Source: Sipunculus nudus
Lineage: Eukaryota; Annelida; Sipuncula; Golfingiida; Sipunculidae
Assembly: GCA_026874595.1 (NCBI GenBank)
Contig: CM049306.1
Location: 94,975,642 to 95,039,641 of the forward strand
Direction: 5' to 3'
DNA: 64,000 nt
In this document: positions 7,058 to 51,300 of the stretch, piece by piece
Layout of the letters: every line of letters starts with the position of its first letter
How positions within the stretch are numbered: position 1 is the stretch's first letter
Notes under the pieces: model-generated
What the model was told of the DNA's origin: nothing
Seen by the model: the letters and a program-made list of their open reading frames with translations, nothing else
The model's database searches: none
Position numbers and translations under genes: made by a program

Positions 7058-23741
<16,684 letters not shown>

Positions 23742-36300: not shown

Positions 36301-39300
36301 TAGATTTCACAATTTTTAATTGTGTCTTTATTTATCCATAATGTGCTTCATATTTTATAATAATTTAAGCATACTGATGGGTTCATTTATATTTGTTAAA
36401 ATCATTTAAAAGAAAATTGATTTCTTTAAAAATGCTACATTACACAACATTGCATCTTCTGGATTACACCTTGAATTATTTTTTCAAGGAAAGTTTCTGC
36501 ATATCGGAGTGGAAACAGCATTACAATTAAGAAGATAGAGTGAAAACAATAACAATTACTGCATAACACTTGGTGGGTTGGGTTTGCGGGGGGGGGGGGG
36601 GGGGGGGGGATGATTGGGGTGAGAATAACTGTACACCTGTCACGGCAGGGGATCTCCCCCAGTGACTGTAACAAATCAGAAACCCTCGCATAGCTGACTT
36701 CCAGTGACCTGGAGTGGGACCCTGCATCTGTAATCAAAGCAAGTGACTACAGAAAAAACTAGATGTGTCGGAACGATACGAATGCCCCCGCCTGGGGCAA
36801 ATTAGAAACATATGTAAAATTTTGAAAATTTTTTTAAGTTCAGGAGGTGTCGTATGGTCAAAAGTAGGTCAACAAGGGCAAAATGCAAACTCGATCTGTA
36901 ACGGGTCATTATCAAGCAACACACCAAAAATCATGCCAGTATATGCAGGCATTGTGAAAAAAAGTCCATACATGTGCATTTTCCATAAAAATTTCTGTCT
37001 TTCATGAAATTTTCTATGTTTAGGAGCCGTAAAACAATCAAAAGTAGGTCAACCGGGATGAAACGCGAACTCGATCTGTAACTGTCATTATCTGCCCACA
37101 CATAAAAAATCAGGGTGGTATCTGCAGGCACTGAGGAAAAAAATCAGTACATATGCATTTGTTATGAAAATTTATATTTTTCATGAAACTTTCTATGTTC
37201 AGGAGCAGTCAAATGGTCAAAAGTAGGTCAACTGGGACAAAACAAGAACTCGATCTGTAACTGGTCATTATCTGCCTACACACCAAAAATCAGGCCCGTA
37301 TCTGCAGGCACTGCGAAAAAAGTCCATACATGTGCACTTTTTTTATGAAATTTCTATGTTAGAGCACCGTCAAATGGTCAAAAGTAGGTAAACTGGGACG
37401 AAACGCAAACTCGATCTGTAACTGGTCTATATCTGCCCACACACCAAAAATCAGGCCAATATCTGCAGGCATTGCGAAAAAAAGTCCGTACATGTGTATC
37501 TGTCATGAATATTTCTATTTTTCATGAAATTTTCTATGTTCAGGAGCCGTATAACGGCCAAAAGTAGGTCAACCGGGACGAAACGCGAACTCGATCTGTA
37601 ACTGGTCATTATCTGCCCACACACAAAAAATCAGGCCAATATCTGCAGGCATTGCGAAAAAAAGTCCGTACAACTGTTTGATTTCGGAAGGAGGAAGGAC
37701 GGAATGACGGACATGGGTAAAACTATATGCCCCGGCCACTTTGTGGCGGGGGCATAATAAAAATCAATAACTAGCTTAATTTTCAAGCTTTTATTTTCAA
37801 ATTTCAGATTTAGACAAACTAAATATTTATGTTTACATGCTGTGAAAATTAAATCAATGGTGCTTACAGGAAAAAAACATTAAACATAGTTATATACTTG
37901 AGAAAATAGACTCTAGTTTCAAAATTTTTCATGTTAAGTGAGTTATTATTTTTCCTGATTTTTTACAAAATCCATTATATTTGGACCCATAACTTAAAGA
38001 ATTTATACTTTACAGACTTAATTTCTGGCATGTACATAGGAACTATATAGAGGAATATTTATGGTAAATATGAGGAAAAACAGATGAGTGGTTTTGATAT
38101 TAGGCAGTCCTGAAGTGTGAAAATAGGATTTTAATAAAAAATTGAGGTTTTTCCTTAATTTCTCAGAGGAACAAAGTCGCAAAGACCCAGTTTTCGGCTT
38201 GGTAGGAGATCTTGGGGACATCTAACATTATGATGAATTTTGGATTCCTAGGTCTTACGGTCTCAAAACGTGCCACATCTACGGACGGACGGACGGACGG
38301 ACGACGGACAATGGACCACGACTATAGCTCAGATGACTTATAGTCAGCTGAGCTAAAAATCACAGTTAAGCCCATAGTTATATTTATACTTCCTGTATAT
38401 TTATATATGTATATATGTGTGTGTATATGCATGTGTGTGTGACTTATAATGCTTGGCACTTCAAATCAATAACTAGAATACGGGTAGTCGACAAGCGACT
38501 ACTTGTATCCGCCTAAATCAGAGTGGAACGTGTGAAGTGTTGCATATTAGCATGGATGTCTGCAGCCAAATTGTGTATGTAGGTTGCGCTACCTACCAAA
38601 AAATCCAGAAAGCTCTATACACATGCAAAACTTTGGCCCAATCGGTCAAACGGTTCCCAAGATATGAGCTTGGATATCTGCTGCATAACCTAGAATGCAG
38701 GTGGCGCCACCTGTCATAAAATCAAGAGAGCTGTCGGGGATGTATAAACTTGCAAAATTTTAGGCAGATATGTCAAACCACTGCCGAGATATGAGTGATT
38801 TTATCCCATGGCAGACAAACAGATGGGAGCTGTGCAAACATGGCTGCAGGTGGCGCAACCAGTTTTGCGTATGATAAAGAGCTATGTGAGATTTATACAC
38901 ATGCAAAATTTTGGCCCAATCAGTCAAACGGTTCCCTAGATATGAGCTTGGATGTCTGCAGCGTAAACTTGATTGTAGGTGGCGCCACCTTTCATAAAAT
39001 CAGAAAAGCTATCCAGGATGTATAAGCATGCCGAATTTCAGGTGAATTAGTCAAACCACTGCCGAGATATGAGTGATTTTAACCCAAGGCAGATGAACAG
39101 ATGGACACTGTGCAAACATGGTTGCAGGTGGTGCCACCATTTTCGGTGTATGTTATAAAGCTCTCCAAGGGCTACATTTGTGCAAAAAAATTTTCCTGAT
39201 CGGTCAAACGGTTCCTGAGATATGAGCTTGGATGTCTGCAGCGTAAACGTGAATGTAGGTGGCGCCACCTGTCATAAAATCAGACTAGATGTGTCGGAAC

Positions 39301-42300
39301 GACACGAATGCCCCCGCCTGGGGCAAATTAGAAACATTTGTTAAATTTTGTAAATTTTTTTAAGTTCAGGAAGTGTTGTATGGTCAAAAGTAGGTCAACA
39401 AGGGAAAAATGCAAACTCGATCTGTAAAGGGTCATTATCAAGCAACACACCAAAAATCAGGCCAGTATCTGCAAGCATTGTGAAAAAAAAGACCATATAT
39501 GTGCATTTTTCATGAAAATTTCTGTCTTTCATGAAATTTTCTATGTTCAGGATCTGTTATATGGTGAAAAATAGGTTAACTGGGACAAAACGCGAACTCG
39601 ATCTGTAAGTGGTCATTATGCGCCCACAGACCAAACATTAGGCCAGTATCAGTAAGCATTGCATTGCGAAACTAGAATATTAGCAAAAGTTGATAATCAT
39701 TTATAAATTTAAATTGGAGAGGTATATACCATGTTTCATAACAATCCACCAAATGCTTCCTGAGAAATAAGCTCCTAAGTTTTTTTCTATAAAGAAGCTC
39801 TGTGACCTTGAAAAGTAGGTCAAGATCACCCATCTTTGAACTTGACCAAGATTTTGTAAATATAATGCAATAGGACTGAAGAAATGAAGTTCCTGTGTTG
39901 AATACCTTTGGAGATATCCTGCACAAAAGGCCAAAATTGAAAAAATCCGATAAAATTTCATTAAAAAATCAGAAATTGCAGGTGGCGCCACCAAAATTGT
40001 GCAGCACATACAGACCATCAGTCCCAATTATCATAGTAAGTTTTGTGAAAATCCACACAATGGTTCCTGAGATATAAACTTCTGAGTGTTTTTCTATAAT
40101 CAGCTCTAAAATGTAGAAAAAAGGGTCAAGGTAACCCATCTTCGAACTTGACCGAGATTTTATCGATATACATCTTCACTGCTGAAATAAAATTCCAACG
40201 GTGAATCCTTTTAGAGATATCCCCCTCACAAGGTAAAAGTTAACAGACGCGGAACAGACGGACGGACGGACAGACTCCGGACAGACAGATGGACAGCTTG
40301 GGTGACGACAATAGCCCATCAGCCTATGAGCTGAGGGCTAAAAACGGCTGTACATGTGTATTTGTCATGAAAATTTCTATTTTTCATGAATTTTTCTAAG
40401 TTTAGGAGCCGTAAAACGGTCAAAAGTAGGTCAACCAGGACGAAACAGGAACTCGATCTGTAACTGGTCTTTATCTGCCCACACACCAAAAATCAGGCCA
40501 ATATCTGCAGGCATTGCGAAAAAAAGTCCGTACATGTGTATTTGTCATGAAAATTTCTATTTTTCATGAAATTTTCTAAGTTTAGGAGCCGTAAAATGGT
40601 CAAAAGTAGGTCAACAGGGACGAAACGCGAACTCGATCTGTAACTTGTCTATATCTGTCTACACACAAAAAATCAGGCCAATATCTGCAGGCATTGCGAA
40701 AAAAAGTCTGTACAACTGTTTGATTTCGGAAGGACGGAAGGACGGACATGGGTAAAACTATATGCCCCGGCCACTTTGTGGCGGGGGCATAAAAAGCTAT
40801 CCAGGATGTATACGCATGCCAAATTTCAGGTGAATTAGTCAAGTCACTGCAGAGAAATGAGTGATTTTAACCCAAGGCAGACAAACAGATGGACACTGTG
40901 CAAACATGGTTGCAGGTAGCGCCACCATTTTTGGTGTATGTTATAAAGCTCTCCAAGGGCTACATTTTTGCAAAAGAATTTTCCTGATCGGTCAAACGGT
41001 TCCCGAGATATGTGGGTTTATGTGTGGAAACAGACGCACAAACGGACGCAGAGCGCAAAGGAAAGGTCAGAGGTCAAAACAAAATCGGGGCACAGCAGTT
41101 CACATGTGACCCGAACATTCCGCCCAGCGGTTACGGAGGAGTTCTCCGGACACCTACGCCGCGGCGGCGGCGGCGTGCAGCTGAAAACATAGTATCCGCA
41201 AAACTCTGTTTTGGCGGATACAATAACTATAATAACTAAGATTTCTTGGGATATTTAAGAATTTGTGTGATTTTTCCCCAAAATGGACCTATTCAAGGTC
41301 AAAGTCACTCTTCTAGTAAAGGTCATGACCCCATTTTAAATAGGCTCTCACAAATATCTATGCACATGTCAAGTTTGGTAAAGATCCGTGAAATATTTTT
41401 TGAGTTATCGCGTCCAAAAGAAATCTCTATGGCAGCGGCGATGCGACTGTGCTTAAACCATAGTATCCTGACTTTGTCTGGGGATACAATGAGCTAAAAT
41501 TAATAATAACCACATTAATAATAAGTCCCCACATCTATTTATGTGTTGATATCAGCAGAGGCAGAGTAAAACTGACTGGTTCAGCTGATGCATCCAGTAA
41601 ATATCAAGTGTAAAACAAAGAAAATATATTTCTAACTAACAAACCTAAATGCTCACTTGCAATGGCTAAAATACAAAAACAATGAGAATAAATTTACAAT
41701 ATGACTGCAAGATGGATGTACCTATTTGCTACAGATGACATAGGTCATTATACTACAAACATTTCAATTGATAACAGTTTACCTACATTATTTCTTGCAA
41801 GATACTATGACCAATCTTACATATAATTGATATCAGCAGAGGAAGAGTAAAACTTACTGGTTCAGCTGATGCATCCATGATGACTGCAAACGTGCTTAGA
41901 TGGTCACATGCACAAAAGCGAACACCTGGCTCAGTAGTGCCACCTGGTGTAACCAACCTACATCCTGCAGAACTCCAGTGACCCCCACTGCTACAAGTAT
42001 AATATGAAAAAGATATAATGGTTTATTAATAATGAAGATAAAATTATAAAGAAAACTATCAGTAAAATAAAAAATATAAATATTACATTAACAGTTGACA
42101 TTTATCACAGATTTCTGGTAGGATATACTATTTATTCAAATAATATTCATTAGATTCAGAATTTAGTAAATCATGTTTCACAAAAAATAGCTGCCTTTGT
42201 TATTCTGTATTTTGTATTTTCCCATTCATCCAATCCATTGTGATGACAGAGATTGTTCTACTTTGAATGTTCTACTTTTGAGAGAAGTTCTGACCTGTGT

Positions 42301-45300: not shown

Positions 45301-48300
45301 TTATGGTGTTTCAAAGAATCTTACTGGATCCATAATCATTTGTTTTAATGCAGATTTCTTAAATGAGGAATAATACATAAACCACAATGCAGGTGTAAAA
45401 TTATACTGGTAATGTTAAACTTAACACTTTAAATCAACACCTACCACATTTATTGCATGTAACTTTTGACATACCTTCATTTTCAGGTAGATAAACTTGA
45501 CAGAGGTACAGTTAAATATATCAGGTTCATGCCAGCCTTGTTGAGCATCACATTTCCTTGTTGCAACACCTGCAAAATAATATATTATAAATTTATAGAA
45601 AAACAAATTCCTTATTGTATGCAGCATAAATTCAGTGTAAAGCACCAATACATTAAATATATTTAAAGTTAAAATAAAGTGTTTAACAACCTAACAGATG
45701 GACAGAAAGACCAACTGTTGAAATAACTGATGGTTAATGTTTTGGGTTTATAAAATATTTCAACACACATGATTCAGTTTCAGTGGGCCAAGTTTACAAT
45801 TTAAAGGCACAATTATAATGCTTGAGAGAAACATTTACAGAATTGCCAAAAATTAAGTTTTTATATGAAAATGGAATGCTTCATAACAGACTCCGTTAAT
45901 ATTCTGTTTACCTTTTGCTCCCTTTGGACATGACTGCTCGGCCACCGTGTTAAACAGAGTTTTCTCCCACCAGACACCAGCTTCAAAGTGCTTCGGACAG
46001 GAATCATACCACACTGCAACAAAAGTACAAGTATATAGCAACACCGCCTCAGCAATCATGTCACACTTTAACAAAACTACTGGTACATATCAAAACTGCT
46101 TCAGCCTGAACTTGTTTCTTATGGGAAACTAAATATCAAGTGTAAAACAAAGAAAATATATTTCTTACTGACAAAATATCAATGCTCACTTTCAATGGAA
46201 AAAAAAATCAAAAACAATGAGATTAAATTTACAATGTGACTGCAAAATTGATGTAGCTATTTGCTACAGATGACATAGATCATTATACTACAAACATTTC
46301 AACTTATTACAGTTTACCTACAATATTTCTTGCAAGATACTATGACCTGTCTTACATATATGAGTTCTCTATGAAAAACAGAGCTAAAAGCAATATACAC
46401 ACATCATTTGCTTATGATTAACTGACATCAAGAACAATGTGACATGCTGACCTTTACATCCTGATGTCGTGACCTCTGCCCTTTTGCTGTTGCAGACATC
46501 ACATCGCCTTCCAAGGACACCCTGTCGACATTTACATTTTCCTGTAACAGGATCGCATTTGCGCCCAAATGACCCAATCGCATAACAGTTACAAGGGTAA
46601 CATGTGGGAAGACCTTGCTCATTCTCGGACAGGTAGTGGTTCACCTGTAATCAATACAAAATAACTATACTCAGGTGAGCAAGTGCTTTATCATCAAAGG
46701 TCAAACATTATAAGTTACTCCAAGAAAATCATTTTTCCTGGAAACATACCATCAATATATATAAATTTTATGCATTATGTACATACATTTATTGTGCAAA
46801 AGTTCAAATGGTTATTTCATTATGGTATAAAATCATGCCATATGTGATACATTTCTTCACATTGTAACACTATGGGAGCAAAAATGAGGATTCTGATGTT
46901 ACATAATTATATGATATCAAACAATCTTCTGTGCACACTTGCACATTATTTTGTGATTGTTTGATAAATTTGTGTTCAACCGCCTTGAACAAGCCAAGGA
47001 GTAAATATAAAAATATAAAAATTTGTTTTGCCTCACAAAGCTTTCTGATAACATGTCAGTGGGAGTGAGAACACTGATATAGAAGAAGCATTTTGTTTGC
47101 GTTTCAAATAATTTTTATTTATTATAATTTCCAAATTTATTATAAATTTCACTTCTTTTGAATACAAGGGTTGGTCCCTACCTTGCAAACACATTCATTT
47201 GCTGATCCCTTGCAGCGATAGTCAAAGCCTCTCTCCACAGAACAGTTACAGGGACCACAGATTGGCGAGCCGACCCAGCCGTCAGGACAGGGCTGTGTGT
47301 ACTTCTTCTCGCAGGCCTCACCGTACTGGTATTTACTGCACACGCAGCGGTAGCCACGGGGAGCAAGCTTGTCTAGCAGGCAGGTGGCGCCTTTAGCACA
47401 CGGGTTCCAGTGGATGCAGACATTCTCACATTTTGGTCCCCTGTATCCTGGAAAATTAAATATATTATACAAATATACATAAAATATTCAAGTTGTCATC
47501 CTCAGCTCTTTTACTTCAGTGTAATTAAGATTGGAAAAAAAATCAAAATCAAAGGCTGGATGAAATGCTGCTGATTTATCAAATTGTACATGAAAACAAG
47601 ACAGACAGGCATAAATCACTGGAATACCAGTTTTGATGTTAATGTTCTGGAAAACAATCTATAAAATCAAATCTCTAAATTCTTTAAAATTGCTGTTAGA
47701 TGCCTGATGTGACATATTAAGACAAAGCTCCATTGTTCTGATGGCCTGAAAAGTTTTTTTTTTCTTTTTCTAACTTTTTTTTTTACATTTGCAGGTATGA
47801 GCTCCCCATCTGGCCTGACATTTACTGTTATAGGACTATCGGACTGTAATTAACCTTTTTTACACTTGCAGGTATGAGCACCCCTGCTGGACTGACTAAT
47901 GCTGGTTTATGACTATGGGACTGTAATTTACCTTTTCTACACCTGCAGGTATAAGCACCCCTGCTGGTACTAATGCTGGTTTATGACTACGGGACTGTAA
48001 TTTACCTTTTTTACACCTGCAGGTATAAGCACCCCTGCTGGACTGACTAATGCTGGTTTATGACTATGGGACTGTAATTTACCTTTTTTACACCTGCAGG
48101 TATAAGCACCCCTGCTGGACTGACTAATGCTGGTTTATGACTATGGGACTGTAATTTACCTTTTTTACACCTGCAGGTATAAGCACCCTTGCTGGACTGA
48201 ATAATTCTGGTTTATGACTATGGGACTGTAATTTACCTTTTTTACACTTGCAGGTATAAGCACCCCTGCTGGACTGACTAATTCTGGTTTATGACTATGG

Positions 48301-51300
48301 GACTGTAATTAACCTTTTTTACACCTGCAGGTATAAGCATCCCTGCTGGACTGAATAATGCTGGTTTATGACTATGGGACTGTAATTTACCTTTTTTACA
48401 CCTGCAGGTATAAGCACCCCTGCTGGACTGAATAATGCTGGTTTATGACTATGGGACTGTAATTTACCTTTTTTACACCTGCAGGTATAAGCACCCCTGC
48501 TGGACTGACTAATGCTGGTTTATGACTATGGGACTGTAATTTACCTTTTTTACACCTGCAGGTATAAGCACCCCTGCTGGACTGAATAATGCTGGTTTAT
48601 GACTATGGGACTGTAATTTACCTTTTTTACACTTGCAGGTATGAGCGCCCCAGCTGGCCTGACATGTGCTGTTGTGTGGACATGTTTTCCCTTCACAGGC
48701 ATCCTCCACTTTACATCCTGCCTCAATCTGGTAGTTGAAGGGATTCTTGGGTTCAGAGTTAGGAAAATTCCCGACACGGATATCCTGTAAATTATAAATA
48801 ATCATTATTAATTATTCATTCTTTGGAACAAAATTTAAGAATATAAAACATTCCAATAATGAACATAATCAGAGACAAATACTGTGAAAATACACAATTA
48901 ATGCAATCAAATAGTTTAATACTGTTGGTAATAAAAGGTTTCACCTAAAGGAAAGGTCAGAGCTACAACAATTTAAAAATATAACTAAATATCAGCAGCT
49001 TGAGGGAGCAAAATATGCAAGTATCCTTATTCACAACAGCATTTAATGACCACGCAAGAGATTTCCAGGATGTAACATAACATGAACATTTTAGTTTACA
49101 CTTGAATTCATTTTACAAGTTGGAGTTTAGTACCCATGGTAACTGAAATTACCTGTATACAGCCGATGAATCCTTCCAGAATGAGGGTGGTCCCTGACAT
49201 GTCCCTCTTCCGGCCCCCCACCATGATCTCCTTGACAACCATGCGATCTACCAGGTTTTCCATGGGGCGCTGAACCTGTTAGAGCAGAGTAAATATTACA
49301 GTGCCATCCACACAGAGTTGTTAGGTCTTCAAAAAACAGGAAATAATTTTCTGATGCTGCTAGAACATTAAAAGTGATGCTCACTGGCACAGCTTCCCAT
49401 TGAATTGTGTAATTCTCATGCATATGTGTTGTGATGCAAATCCACATACCACAACAAAGAATTTTTGAATACTGACATGTTGGTTGGATATGTCTATAAC
49501 AGGCTTTATAATTAGGCCCCATTATGTGAACTACAAAAGTTAAATCAAGAAATTATTTAAAAGACAGATCTTAAAATAAAATCCATCAGCAATGACTGGC
49601 TTCTTCAACTTTATCTGTCCATGGTGTAACAGAATGAAGTTTATTATTATTTTTAAGGATAGGTCCATGGCCTGTTTAGTGTACTATCTATTCAGTGAGA
49701 TTGCATGTAATGATTAAATAGCTTAATTTGTACTCATCAGTCTTCTAGGTGGCTCACCTCTATCTGTCCGTAGTCTAACAGGATGACGAGTTTGCTCTGC
49801 ATCCATCGAGTCTCCAGGTAGTGCCACTTCCCATCGTCCACTCGTACAGGTTCCACCATAATATTACTTTTCTCATGGGAGTAGAGGATTCTTCCATCTT
49901 TGATCTATAACAGTATAAACATTAAGCGTATTCGATTGGTCGATTTTGTGTAGCACATTCTCCCCGTTTTACACATTTTATATTTGGCTGGTTGCTTGTG
50001 TTACACTAACTTTTCACCTGTGTAGCACAAACTCCTAAAAAAAAATCCACTTTTGTGTCTGCCAGACAAGTGAGGTTTCATTTATGGTAGCCCATAAGAA
50101 GGGACTCCTCACTTGTTTTTTTAGTGACTGCCTCAATATGGAGCCCCGAATGACTTAATATAAAGAAAACTGTTGCGTCCATGTCAGGGGCTATGTTTAT
50201 GGTCACTGGCAGACAATTTTACTGGACTTAACTTGACTGGTCCTTTTCTAATCACTACTTCTTGGCTACAGCAGCGGTGGGCGGAATGTAATTTTACTCC
50301 TTGAAAAAGTACCAGTCAAATATGGCTGTGGTTTCATGAGACTGATGATATCATTATTAAGACTTCATCATAAGTAGAACAAAAAGTTTTTATATGTTGA
50401 AGTTATATTATCTGCTCTAACACATATTAGCTTCAAAGTTGTATTTTGTAAAGATGTGTTAATTTTTAGGCTTGATGATTTGATCCCAGGTAAAGTTATA
50501 CACAGACCTTGATGAAGATGCTGATGCTCTTTTGCTGTCCCCTTGCAGCCCCAGGTCTTTCAGCCTTCAAGTACATCAGAAGGGCATTTGTCTGTCGTGT
50601 ACGGAAAGCCACACCATTGTACCAGGGAAGTTTTATAGATTCAAGTCCATGATTAGTACCGTATAATATACAGCTGTCTCCAGAAAACTTGCTTGGTCTG
50701 TCGATAGCTGAAACAGAGACAACGCTCTGTAACTCAATACACTTCAACATTAATGATACTTCAGATACATCCTTATAATACAAATATTTAAAATATCCTT
50801 TAAAACAGAAATTACCACTTATTTTTTCTTATTTTTTTCTGTTTCTTCTGACAATGTTTGGGCCAGATATTAAAATAGGTAAAAGTTTAAGTATTGTACT
50901 CACAGATGAATGTTTAAACAAAAGACCTATAAAAATATGTTGATTGTTTATACTTTACAGATAAGTCCATATATGATTTTTAATGAAAATATAATTAGGC
51001 CTACTCCGAGTTTAATATATTAAGAAATTAATGAAAACTGATAAATAAAATGGTCTTTATTAATAAATTTCTATTTGCATGTAGGCCTATAACTTTAAAA
51101 TTCATCCATAAATTGCACAGAGTATTACTCATAATGCCGATGTCTGTATGTACTTATAGCTCTTCATTTAATTGTACAAGTGCTAAACAGGATAGTCAGG
51201 ACCTTAAGCTCTGGGGCAATGAGTCTGGGTCCGGAGCTCCAGACACTTTGTTTATAAAATTCTTTCCTTACTCTGAGTGCAGTCCTTGCCACCAAATCCC

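Follow-up and report, generated by a model that had tools for sequence, protein, structure and literature searches.

A minisatellite made from the end of a CELSR exon and its splice donor, one of many splice-junction arrays in the genome of Sipunculus nudus

The window that we analysed, a stretch of 64,000 nucleotides of the Sipunculus nudus genome, carries a gene that an earlier note on this DNA had named as CELSR. The assignment holds: segments for LamG, EGF, laminin-EGF, HRM, GAIN and 7tm_2 domains follow one another in order (one LamG falls below the cut-off and another is unmatched), and two joined exons match CELSR1 (PDB 8vy2) with an E value of 6.5e-32. The features of this gene given below lie on the minus strand. 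An exon of 163 nt that ends in phase 1 (48622..48784) is followed by an intron whose native 5′ splice site, AAG/GTAAAT, occupies 48616..48624 (GT at 48621-48620) and whose 3′ splice site (TTAATTTTCCAG) occupies 47448..47470; the next exon spans 47182..47447. The native join keeps the frame (CKCKKG-YRGPKCE) and restores an EGF-like domain. This intron opens with an array of 11 units (47774..48621), in which the 3′ end of the preceding exon is copied; the acceptor lies approximately 325 nt past the array, in unrelated sequence. A second exon of the same gene, the HRM exon, also carries a junction-spanning repeat: about two 52-bp copies are found over its acceptor (45998..46105), the exon itself probably starting at 46013.

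TRF describes the array (47779-48671) as having a period of 77, 11.6 copies, 93% matches and a score of 1443. The unit donors start at 48544, 48467, 48390, 48313, 48236, 48159, 48082, 48005, 47931, 47854 and, in decayed form, 47774. Nine units are 77 bp long (units 1-8 and 10), one is 74 bp and the degenerate last copy is approximately 80 bp; of the eleven 77-bp units proposed earlier, the count stands, as 11 copies of the exon tail, and the uniform length does not. The last unit (47774..47854) is the most diverged of the array: it retains an exon-like GTCAGGCCAG that is absent from units 1-10, its A-tract is expanded, and its donor has decayed to GTTAGA. Past this unit, only the first bases (GTTA) of the continuing sequence resemble the unit's intron start, which leaves the reconstruction of the founding event imperfect.

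Local alignment of five units with the exon gave scores of 66-83, against shuffle maxima of 26-29; the resemblance is not due to chance. When the exon's last 57 nt are compared with the units in register, identity is 46/57 for unit 2 and 48/57 for unit 10. Outside a 43-nt core, 9 of the remaining 14 nt are identical in this in-register test (binomial P 0.008), and in the 20 nt upstream of those 14 there is no similarity (4/20 identical). Bearing in mind that similarity runs through 57 nt and is lacking in the preceding 20, we describe the unit as approximately 57 nt of exon plus 20 nt of intron; the earlier figure of about 36 exonic nt was too short. The left part of the unit alone did not reach significance in shuffled local alignments (0.38-0.63 of shuffles scored as well), and the outer 14 nt are thus supported by the in-register test only. 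The central claim, that this minisatellite is made of the CELSR exon end and its splice donor, is upheld by both the unit anatomy and the alignments.

Counting the native site, there are 12 donors: nine read AAG/GTAAAT (the native donor and those of eight units), two units have AAG/GTTAAT, and the last copy has GTTAGA. About twelve near-identical 5′ splice sites had been predicted; eleven fit that description and the twelfth has decayed. When each downstream donor was joined in silico to the next exon, a premature stop followed in 11 of 11 cases (the last unit's donor was placed one base off in these computations, as in those of donor strength and accessibility below), which bears out the expectation that use of a downstream donor shifts the frame. 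With the donor of unit 1, for example, the frame is shifted and the stop falls within the next exon. A stop had also been anticipated on read-through of the first units: there is one in unit 2, 111 nt into the intron, and unit 1 is open.

The native 9-mer, AAGGUAAAU, pairs with U1 at a computed -6.8 kcal/mol, versus -11.8 kcal/mol for the consensus; candidate donors at other exons of this CELSR gene, hand-picked from a list, range from about -5.7 to -10.1 kcal/mol. The shared 9-mer is therefore ordinary to weak, and it offers no explanation for donor choice. The computed accessibility of the native donor was 0.062, 0.038 and 0.037 in three settings, lower than that of 10, 10 and 9, respectively, of the 11 downstream donors. 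We rejected the idea that RNA structure masks the downstream donors, since the native donor is computed to be less accessible than most of the others. Nothing in donor strength or computed accessibility puts the native donor at an advantage, an observation that counts against the explanation offered below.

The CELSR locus is not singular; it is one of many junction arrays in this genome. In an own-genome control, such arrays were found at 7 of 29 laminin-G loci, and a fixed rule identified them at 6 of 138 kinase/carrier exons, where inspection added three further, older ones. They occur at donors and at acceptors, in unrelated genes; after one laminin-G exon there come 455 units of 39 bp (contig 15, from 48529351). 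An acceptor duplication of 87 bp, present in two copies that are 100% identical (L125), looks like an early stage of such an array. Two candidates were not scored as junction-spanning: one array starts approximately 9 nt past the donor (L039), and another is degenerate and merely reaches the acceptor (L075). Arrays straddle junctions more commonly than expected under a simple model of random founding; at LamG loci, the enrichment was not significant when the strict rule was applied by itself (2/16, P 0.066). The units of 15 junction arrays are mutually dissimilar, which argues that each array derives from its own exon. At acceptor arrays, too, the native site is ordinary. Our literature search for junction arrays as a genome-wide or a molluscan/bivalve feature returned nothing fitting.

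Human precedents for splice-junction VNTRs are provided by ABCA7 and CBS. The ABCA7 intron-18 VNTR is described as adjoining exon 18 and including its donor, with a 25-bp unit that starts at GT; splicing from the donor of the following unit keeps one unit in the transcript, with a frameshift and a premature stop, and donor use within the VNTR coexists with canonical splicing (PMC5954066). That VNTR is highly length-polymorphic, and its length correlates with expression and with exon 19 skipping (PMC5954066). The CELSR array is alike in that it abuts the exon, holds the exon's donor in its unit, and yields a frameshift and a stop from downstream donors. In contrast, the ABCA7 unit is described as intronic from the GT, whereas the CELSR unit adds approximately 57 nt of exon; furthermore, splicing and polymorphism were measured for ABCA7, whereas the CELSR array is described here from one genome sequence. 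In CBS, a 31-bp VNTR of 16-21 units, c.1444_1467+7(16_21), lies at the boundary of exon 13 and intron 13 (PMC2630376, PMC5188458). We read this notation as 24 nt of exon end plus 7 nt of intron, i.e., an exon end plus its donor in each unit, as in CELSR, and 31, like 77, is not a multiple of 3; however, the CBS unit is shorter, and as described this human case comes without genome-wide context. The primary paper on the CBS repeat is that of Lievers (2001). The human IFI6 (6-16) minisatellite, attributed to Turri in 1995, reportedly has 12-bp, frame-preserving units of which several donors are used. In CBS with a 68-bp junction duplication, there is a strong preference for the site that lies more distally (PMC2630376), and thus the 'first' site is no general rule; in our interpretation, the favoured distal site is the one joined to the intact exon. 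In human duplicated genes, variable internal tandem repeats located at exon-intron boundaries (on average, 30-bp units repeated four times) affect splicing and may form introns; that study is concerned mostly with the lengthening of exons and introns between paralogues (PMC2812944). These too are minisatellites at exon-intron boundaries, but they are not reported to consist of copies of a single donor or acceptor, unlike the CELSR array.

Beyond the anatomy, homology, stops and recurrence described above, we consider it likely that a junction-straddling duplication was amplified and is tolerated since the exon retains a splice site of its own, which is probably the one mainly used. A short tandem duplication of approximately 57 nt of exon and 20 nt of intron would have spared the exon and its donor; amplification of the duplicate, with partial homogenisation, would then have produced the minisatellite within the intron. 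A recurrent class of arrays, at donors and acceptors both, may have arisen in this way. The splice site on the intact exon body would remain the main site. The native exon measures 163 nt and the alternatives at least 240 nt, so exon definition would favour the native donor, which is also transcribed first; occasional use of a unit donor would lead to premature stops, and the transcripts would presumably be removed by nonsense-mediated decay.

It is unlikely that the array acts instead as a regulatory rheostat, in which the unit donors are purposeful competitors and the length of the array determines what fraction of CELSR transcripts goes to decay. A stop from every downstream donor, a native donor below the strongest possible (-6.8 versus -11.8 kcal/mol) and the length correlations in ABCA7 (PMC5954066) would suit such a role, but similar arrays occur in unrelated genes and unit lengths show no frame preference, being divisible by 3 in 5 of 15 arrays, as by chance. 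Nor are redundant splice dinucleotides conserved: 21 of 228 GT/AG site-copies are mutated versus 11.9 expected, an excess whose Poisson P of 0.011 is overstated because units are not independent. We accordingly reject selection that preserves redundant splice sites.

We consider it very improbable that the intron itself arose when an exonic AGGT segment was duplicated in tandem, as in the Rogers model, and that the array is what remains of this event. The units do contain AAG/GT copies, a fission-yeast intron gain by tandem duplication involved several copies (PMC4974935), and boundary repeats have been tied to novel introns in human paralogues (PMC2812944). That model derives both splice sites from the duplicated segment, whereas the CELSR acceptor, at 47448, falls beyond the array in unrelated sequence, and the ordinary native site at acceptor arrays also speaks against it. 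The units do retain the EGF-like frame S-S-R-G-A-Y-T-C-R-C-K-K-G, and in one acceptor array (L017) the exon frame runs without a stop across the 150 nt shown, but we give very little credence to their being extra coding sequence or mini-exons: stops occur in CELSR, in the five further donor arrays that were read and in three of the four acceptor arrays that were read. Assembly is difficult across tandem repeats, and this array was judged from the assembled sequence; nevertheless, an assembly artefact is scarcely to be expected, given units with private variants (3.8% from consensus), diverged array edges and independent arrays at many loci. An unrelated dispersed repeat that resembles the exon by accident is hardly conceivable, common as such repeats are here (a 180-bp family, for example): similarity to the exon is far above that of shuffles, and two own-genome searches, which skipped very common words, matched only the CELSR site. 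A paralogous CELSR exon was likewise rejected: a search that admitted matches up to E 10 returned nothing but the exon itself and one weak hit within the array.

Returning to a junction-straddling duplication as our preferred origin, we tentatively extend it: splice junctions could be preferred birthplaces of minisatellites here, with several per cent of exons adjoining arrays built from their own donor or acceptor, in up to hundreds of copies, and with splicing kept accurate by choice of the site nearest the exon body, however many identical competitors there are. Artificial duplications are the usual means of studying how identical splice sites compete. In these natural arrays, donors or acceptors are matched in sequence and in context (about -57 to +20 in CELSR) and differ chiefly in their distance from the exon; copy numbers run from approximately 2 to 455, and such arrays occur at either end of exons and in several genes within a single animal. 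They would let one ask how cells tell the correct splice site from its near-identical neighbours, and could reveal whether closeness to the exon body is what counts and how leakage changes as copies are added. They are also candidate length polymorphisms placed directly on splice sites. If junctions are indeed preferred birthplaces, this genome would amount to an experiment on exon definition that nature has run across the whole genome.

The exon that bears the native donor (163 nt, 48784-48622, minus strand) ends in ...TGCAAGTGTAAAAAAG with GTAAAT directly after. Its assignment to CELSR in the earlier note is borne out: the array-flanking exons, joined 48622/47447, match CELSR1 (PDB 8vy2, E 6.5e-32) across CKCKKG-YRGPKCE, and because the match runs through the junction, 48621 is the native donor. 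Segments of the gene follow in the order LamG, EGF, laminin-EGF, HRM, GAIN, 7tm_2 (Pfam); of the four segments in the LamG region, two exceed the cut-off, a third matches weakly and the fourth matches nothing. The array (47774-48621, minus strand) occupies ~848 nt of a 1174-nt intron, with a period of 77 bp, 11.6 copies and 93% matches (TRF). Cut at its donors, it resolves into the exon tail plus 11 copies; that count agrees with the eleven 77-bp units first described, but only nine have this length (units 1-8 and 10), unit 9 being 74 bp and the last, with a longer A-tract, ~80 bp. Some twelve near-identical donors had also been claimed: nine, the native one among them, read AAG/GTAAAT and those following units 4 and 10 read AAG/GTTAAT, but the last is GTTAGA.

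The exonic part of each unit exceeds the ~36 bases originally proposed: in-register identity spans the last 57 nt of the exon (46/57 for unit 2, 48/57 for unit 10), and the 20 nt upstream of that stretch have no in-register similarity to the units (4/20). The outer 14 nt of the 57 score 9/14 (in-register test, P 0.008); a local-alignment test against shuffles, run on just the left part, lent them no support. Copies most like the exon lie at the far end of the array: CTCATACCTGCAAGTG is common to unit 10 and the exon, and GTCAGGCCAG is kept in unit 11 and absent from units 1-10. These exon-like far-end copies would fit a history in which the duplication arose early and an inner variant then expanded. 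The gene also holds a second junction-spanning repeat, about two 52-bp copies over the HRM exon acceptor (45998-46105).

When all 11 downstream donors were spliced in silico onto the next exon, none gave a productive join. Donor 1 shifts the frame and meets a stop inside the next exon, and donors 2-11 all run into the stop that lies within unit 2, 111 nt from the start of the intron; both the frame shift and the read-through stop had been anticipated. In these joins the next exon had an extra base at its far end and the last donor was placed one base off, neither of which alters the stops. Predicted accessibility does not explain the presumed use of the native donor: under three settings it is lower there than at 10, 10 and 9 of the 11 downstream donors. 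Nor does donor strength, nine of the 9-mers being identical. What sets the native donor apart is distance: the exon measures 163 nt with it, then 240, 317 and up to ~1010 nt with the unit donors. The native donor would be chosen through exon definition plus first-come transcription.

Donor-spanning minisatellites are already known in man (ABCA7, CBS and IFI6, in the last of which one reportedly lies over the splice donor), and the single CELSR array is one more such case. ABCA7 resembles it in having the donor at the repeat start; according to PMC5954066, retention of one unit occurs, shifts the frame and is unchanged with VNTR length, and next-exon skipping rises with length. In the CBS 68-bp duplication of the intron 7/exon 8 junction, the more distal site is strongly favoured (PMC2630376); we read this site as the copy joined to the intact exon remainder, so that the same rule, and not 'first wins', would apply. 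The CBS VNTR c.1444_1467+7 (PMC2630376), a notation that to our reading denotes exon end plus donor, sits at the exon 13-intron 13 boundary (PMC5188458; a table of PMC1395315), and PMC2812944 describes variable repeats at exon-intron boundaries in human duplicated genes. Recurrence of arrays at both exon ends, in unrelated genes of one genome and with up to hundreds of copies, was not found in searches of open-licence PMC text.

This recurrence hypothesis arose from 29 other laminin-G loci of the same genome (1.43 Gb, 153 contigs), cut as a background control (30 cut, the CELSR one excluded). Seven of the 29, some of which overlap or adjoin, have arrays over a splice junction, exon ends beyond CELSR being placed by homology, frame and consensus. 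Four arrays lie at the matched LamG exon: acceptor arrays of 55 bp (L017) and 58 bp (L028), a 39-bp donor array (L036) and a reverse-strand donor array of 24 58-bp copies (L025), which includes only ~8 nt of exon and is graded 'probable'. Three lie at neighbouring exons: a 33-bp donor array (L029), a 79 bp x 2 acceptor array (L033) and 54 bp x 17 at CTCAG/GTGAGT (L035).

The L036 array, on contig 15 from ~48529337, follows a laminin-G exon and extends for 17.8 kb (17,756 bp; 455 copies; pieces L036, L177, L180 and L181), with a stop 2 nt past the exon's inferred donor. The fetched 39 kb of the contig hold 380 exact AAGTGTAAGT motifs (donor AAGT/GTAAGT), the last within this array, which also has longer-range internal repetition: exact 200-mers recur at offsets of, for example, 936 and 819. 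Eight more minisatellite arrays, of periods 26-180, occupy the 19.7 kb beyond (48547.9-48566.4 kb; L181, L182); introns of this genome can be very array-rich. Separately, a 180-bp tandem family (TGTACGGACTTTTTTTCGCAATGCC...), in appearance a repeat borne by a mobile element, recurs at several sites in the genome, in arrays that hold 2-7 copies (window 19982-21203, 36858-37672 and 40350-40714; also L028 and L181).

A later sample came from two unrelated families and comprised 78 Pkinase and 60 mitochondrial carrier exons (138 in all), each taken with flanks of 350 nt; one piece (L059) ends early at its contig end. Under a strict rule of TRF/coding-match overlap, six exons (five among the first 100, one among the next 38) have junction-spanning arrays, which share 22-71 nt with the homologous coding match and extend into the intron: donor arrays in L045, L105 and L165, acceptor arrays in L096, L114 and L125. 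Followed past the survey piece, L105 reaches 21.8 copies and L045 24.3. Self-comparison alone revealed older junction duplications of 2-3 copies in L072, L095 and L147. L125 (213-386, gene strand) is an 87-bp duplication over a carrier-gene acceptor with copies 100% identical, perhaps newly founded. In the 38-bp array of L114 (230-350, gene strand), the two units nearest the native exon lack AG (TTTCCG, TTTCAA) and farther units mostly retain it; this loss may be due to chance, or the closest competitors may have been pruned.

Compared among themselves, the units of 15 arrays give no match at E 0.01, and each array is therefore taken to derive from its own exon. Unit lengths are divisible by 3 in 5/15, equal to chance. 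Reading on in exon frame meets a stop within two units in six donor arrays (CELSR, L035, L036, L045, L105, L165); acceptor arrays read upstream have stops in 3/4, L017 having none over the 150 nt shown. There is no sign that redundant GT/AG sites are preserved in nine arrays: 21 of 228 site-copies are mutated where the remainder of the unit predicts 11.9, an excess that the P of 0.011 exaggerates because amplification spreads mutations. CELSR, with GT kept in 10/10 copies and 0.76 mutated of 20 sites expected, is uninformative both ways.

Are junctions hit more often than chance allows? Our null model founds each array by one unit-length duplication, leaving 8 nt or more on both sides and placed uniformly over the sampled intron or across the exon end. 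Survey arrays lie on junctions in 6 of 13 cases, against 1.86 expected (P 0.0045). The LamG set, which is not independent of the hypothesis, gives 2 of 16 under the strict rule against 0.43 expected (P 0.066), or 4 of 16 once exon ends are adjusted by visual inspection (P 0.0006); arrays beside neighbouring LamG exons are scored as misses. Combined, the figures are 8/29 (P 7e-4) or 10/29 (P 1.3e-5), against 2.3 expected. Throughout, the sample is small, its exons were eye-picked from match lists, two unit lengths were set manually and the model is crude. The enrichment may stem from a bias of mutation towards the vicinity of exons, or the null may simply be a poor one; that splice junctions are a hot spot for array birth in this genome is a tentative proposition, which we consider possible but rather doubtful.
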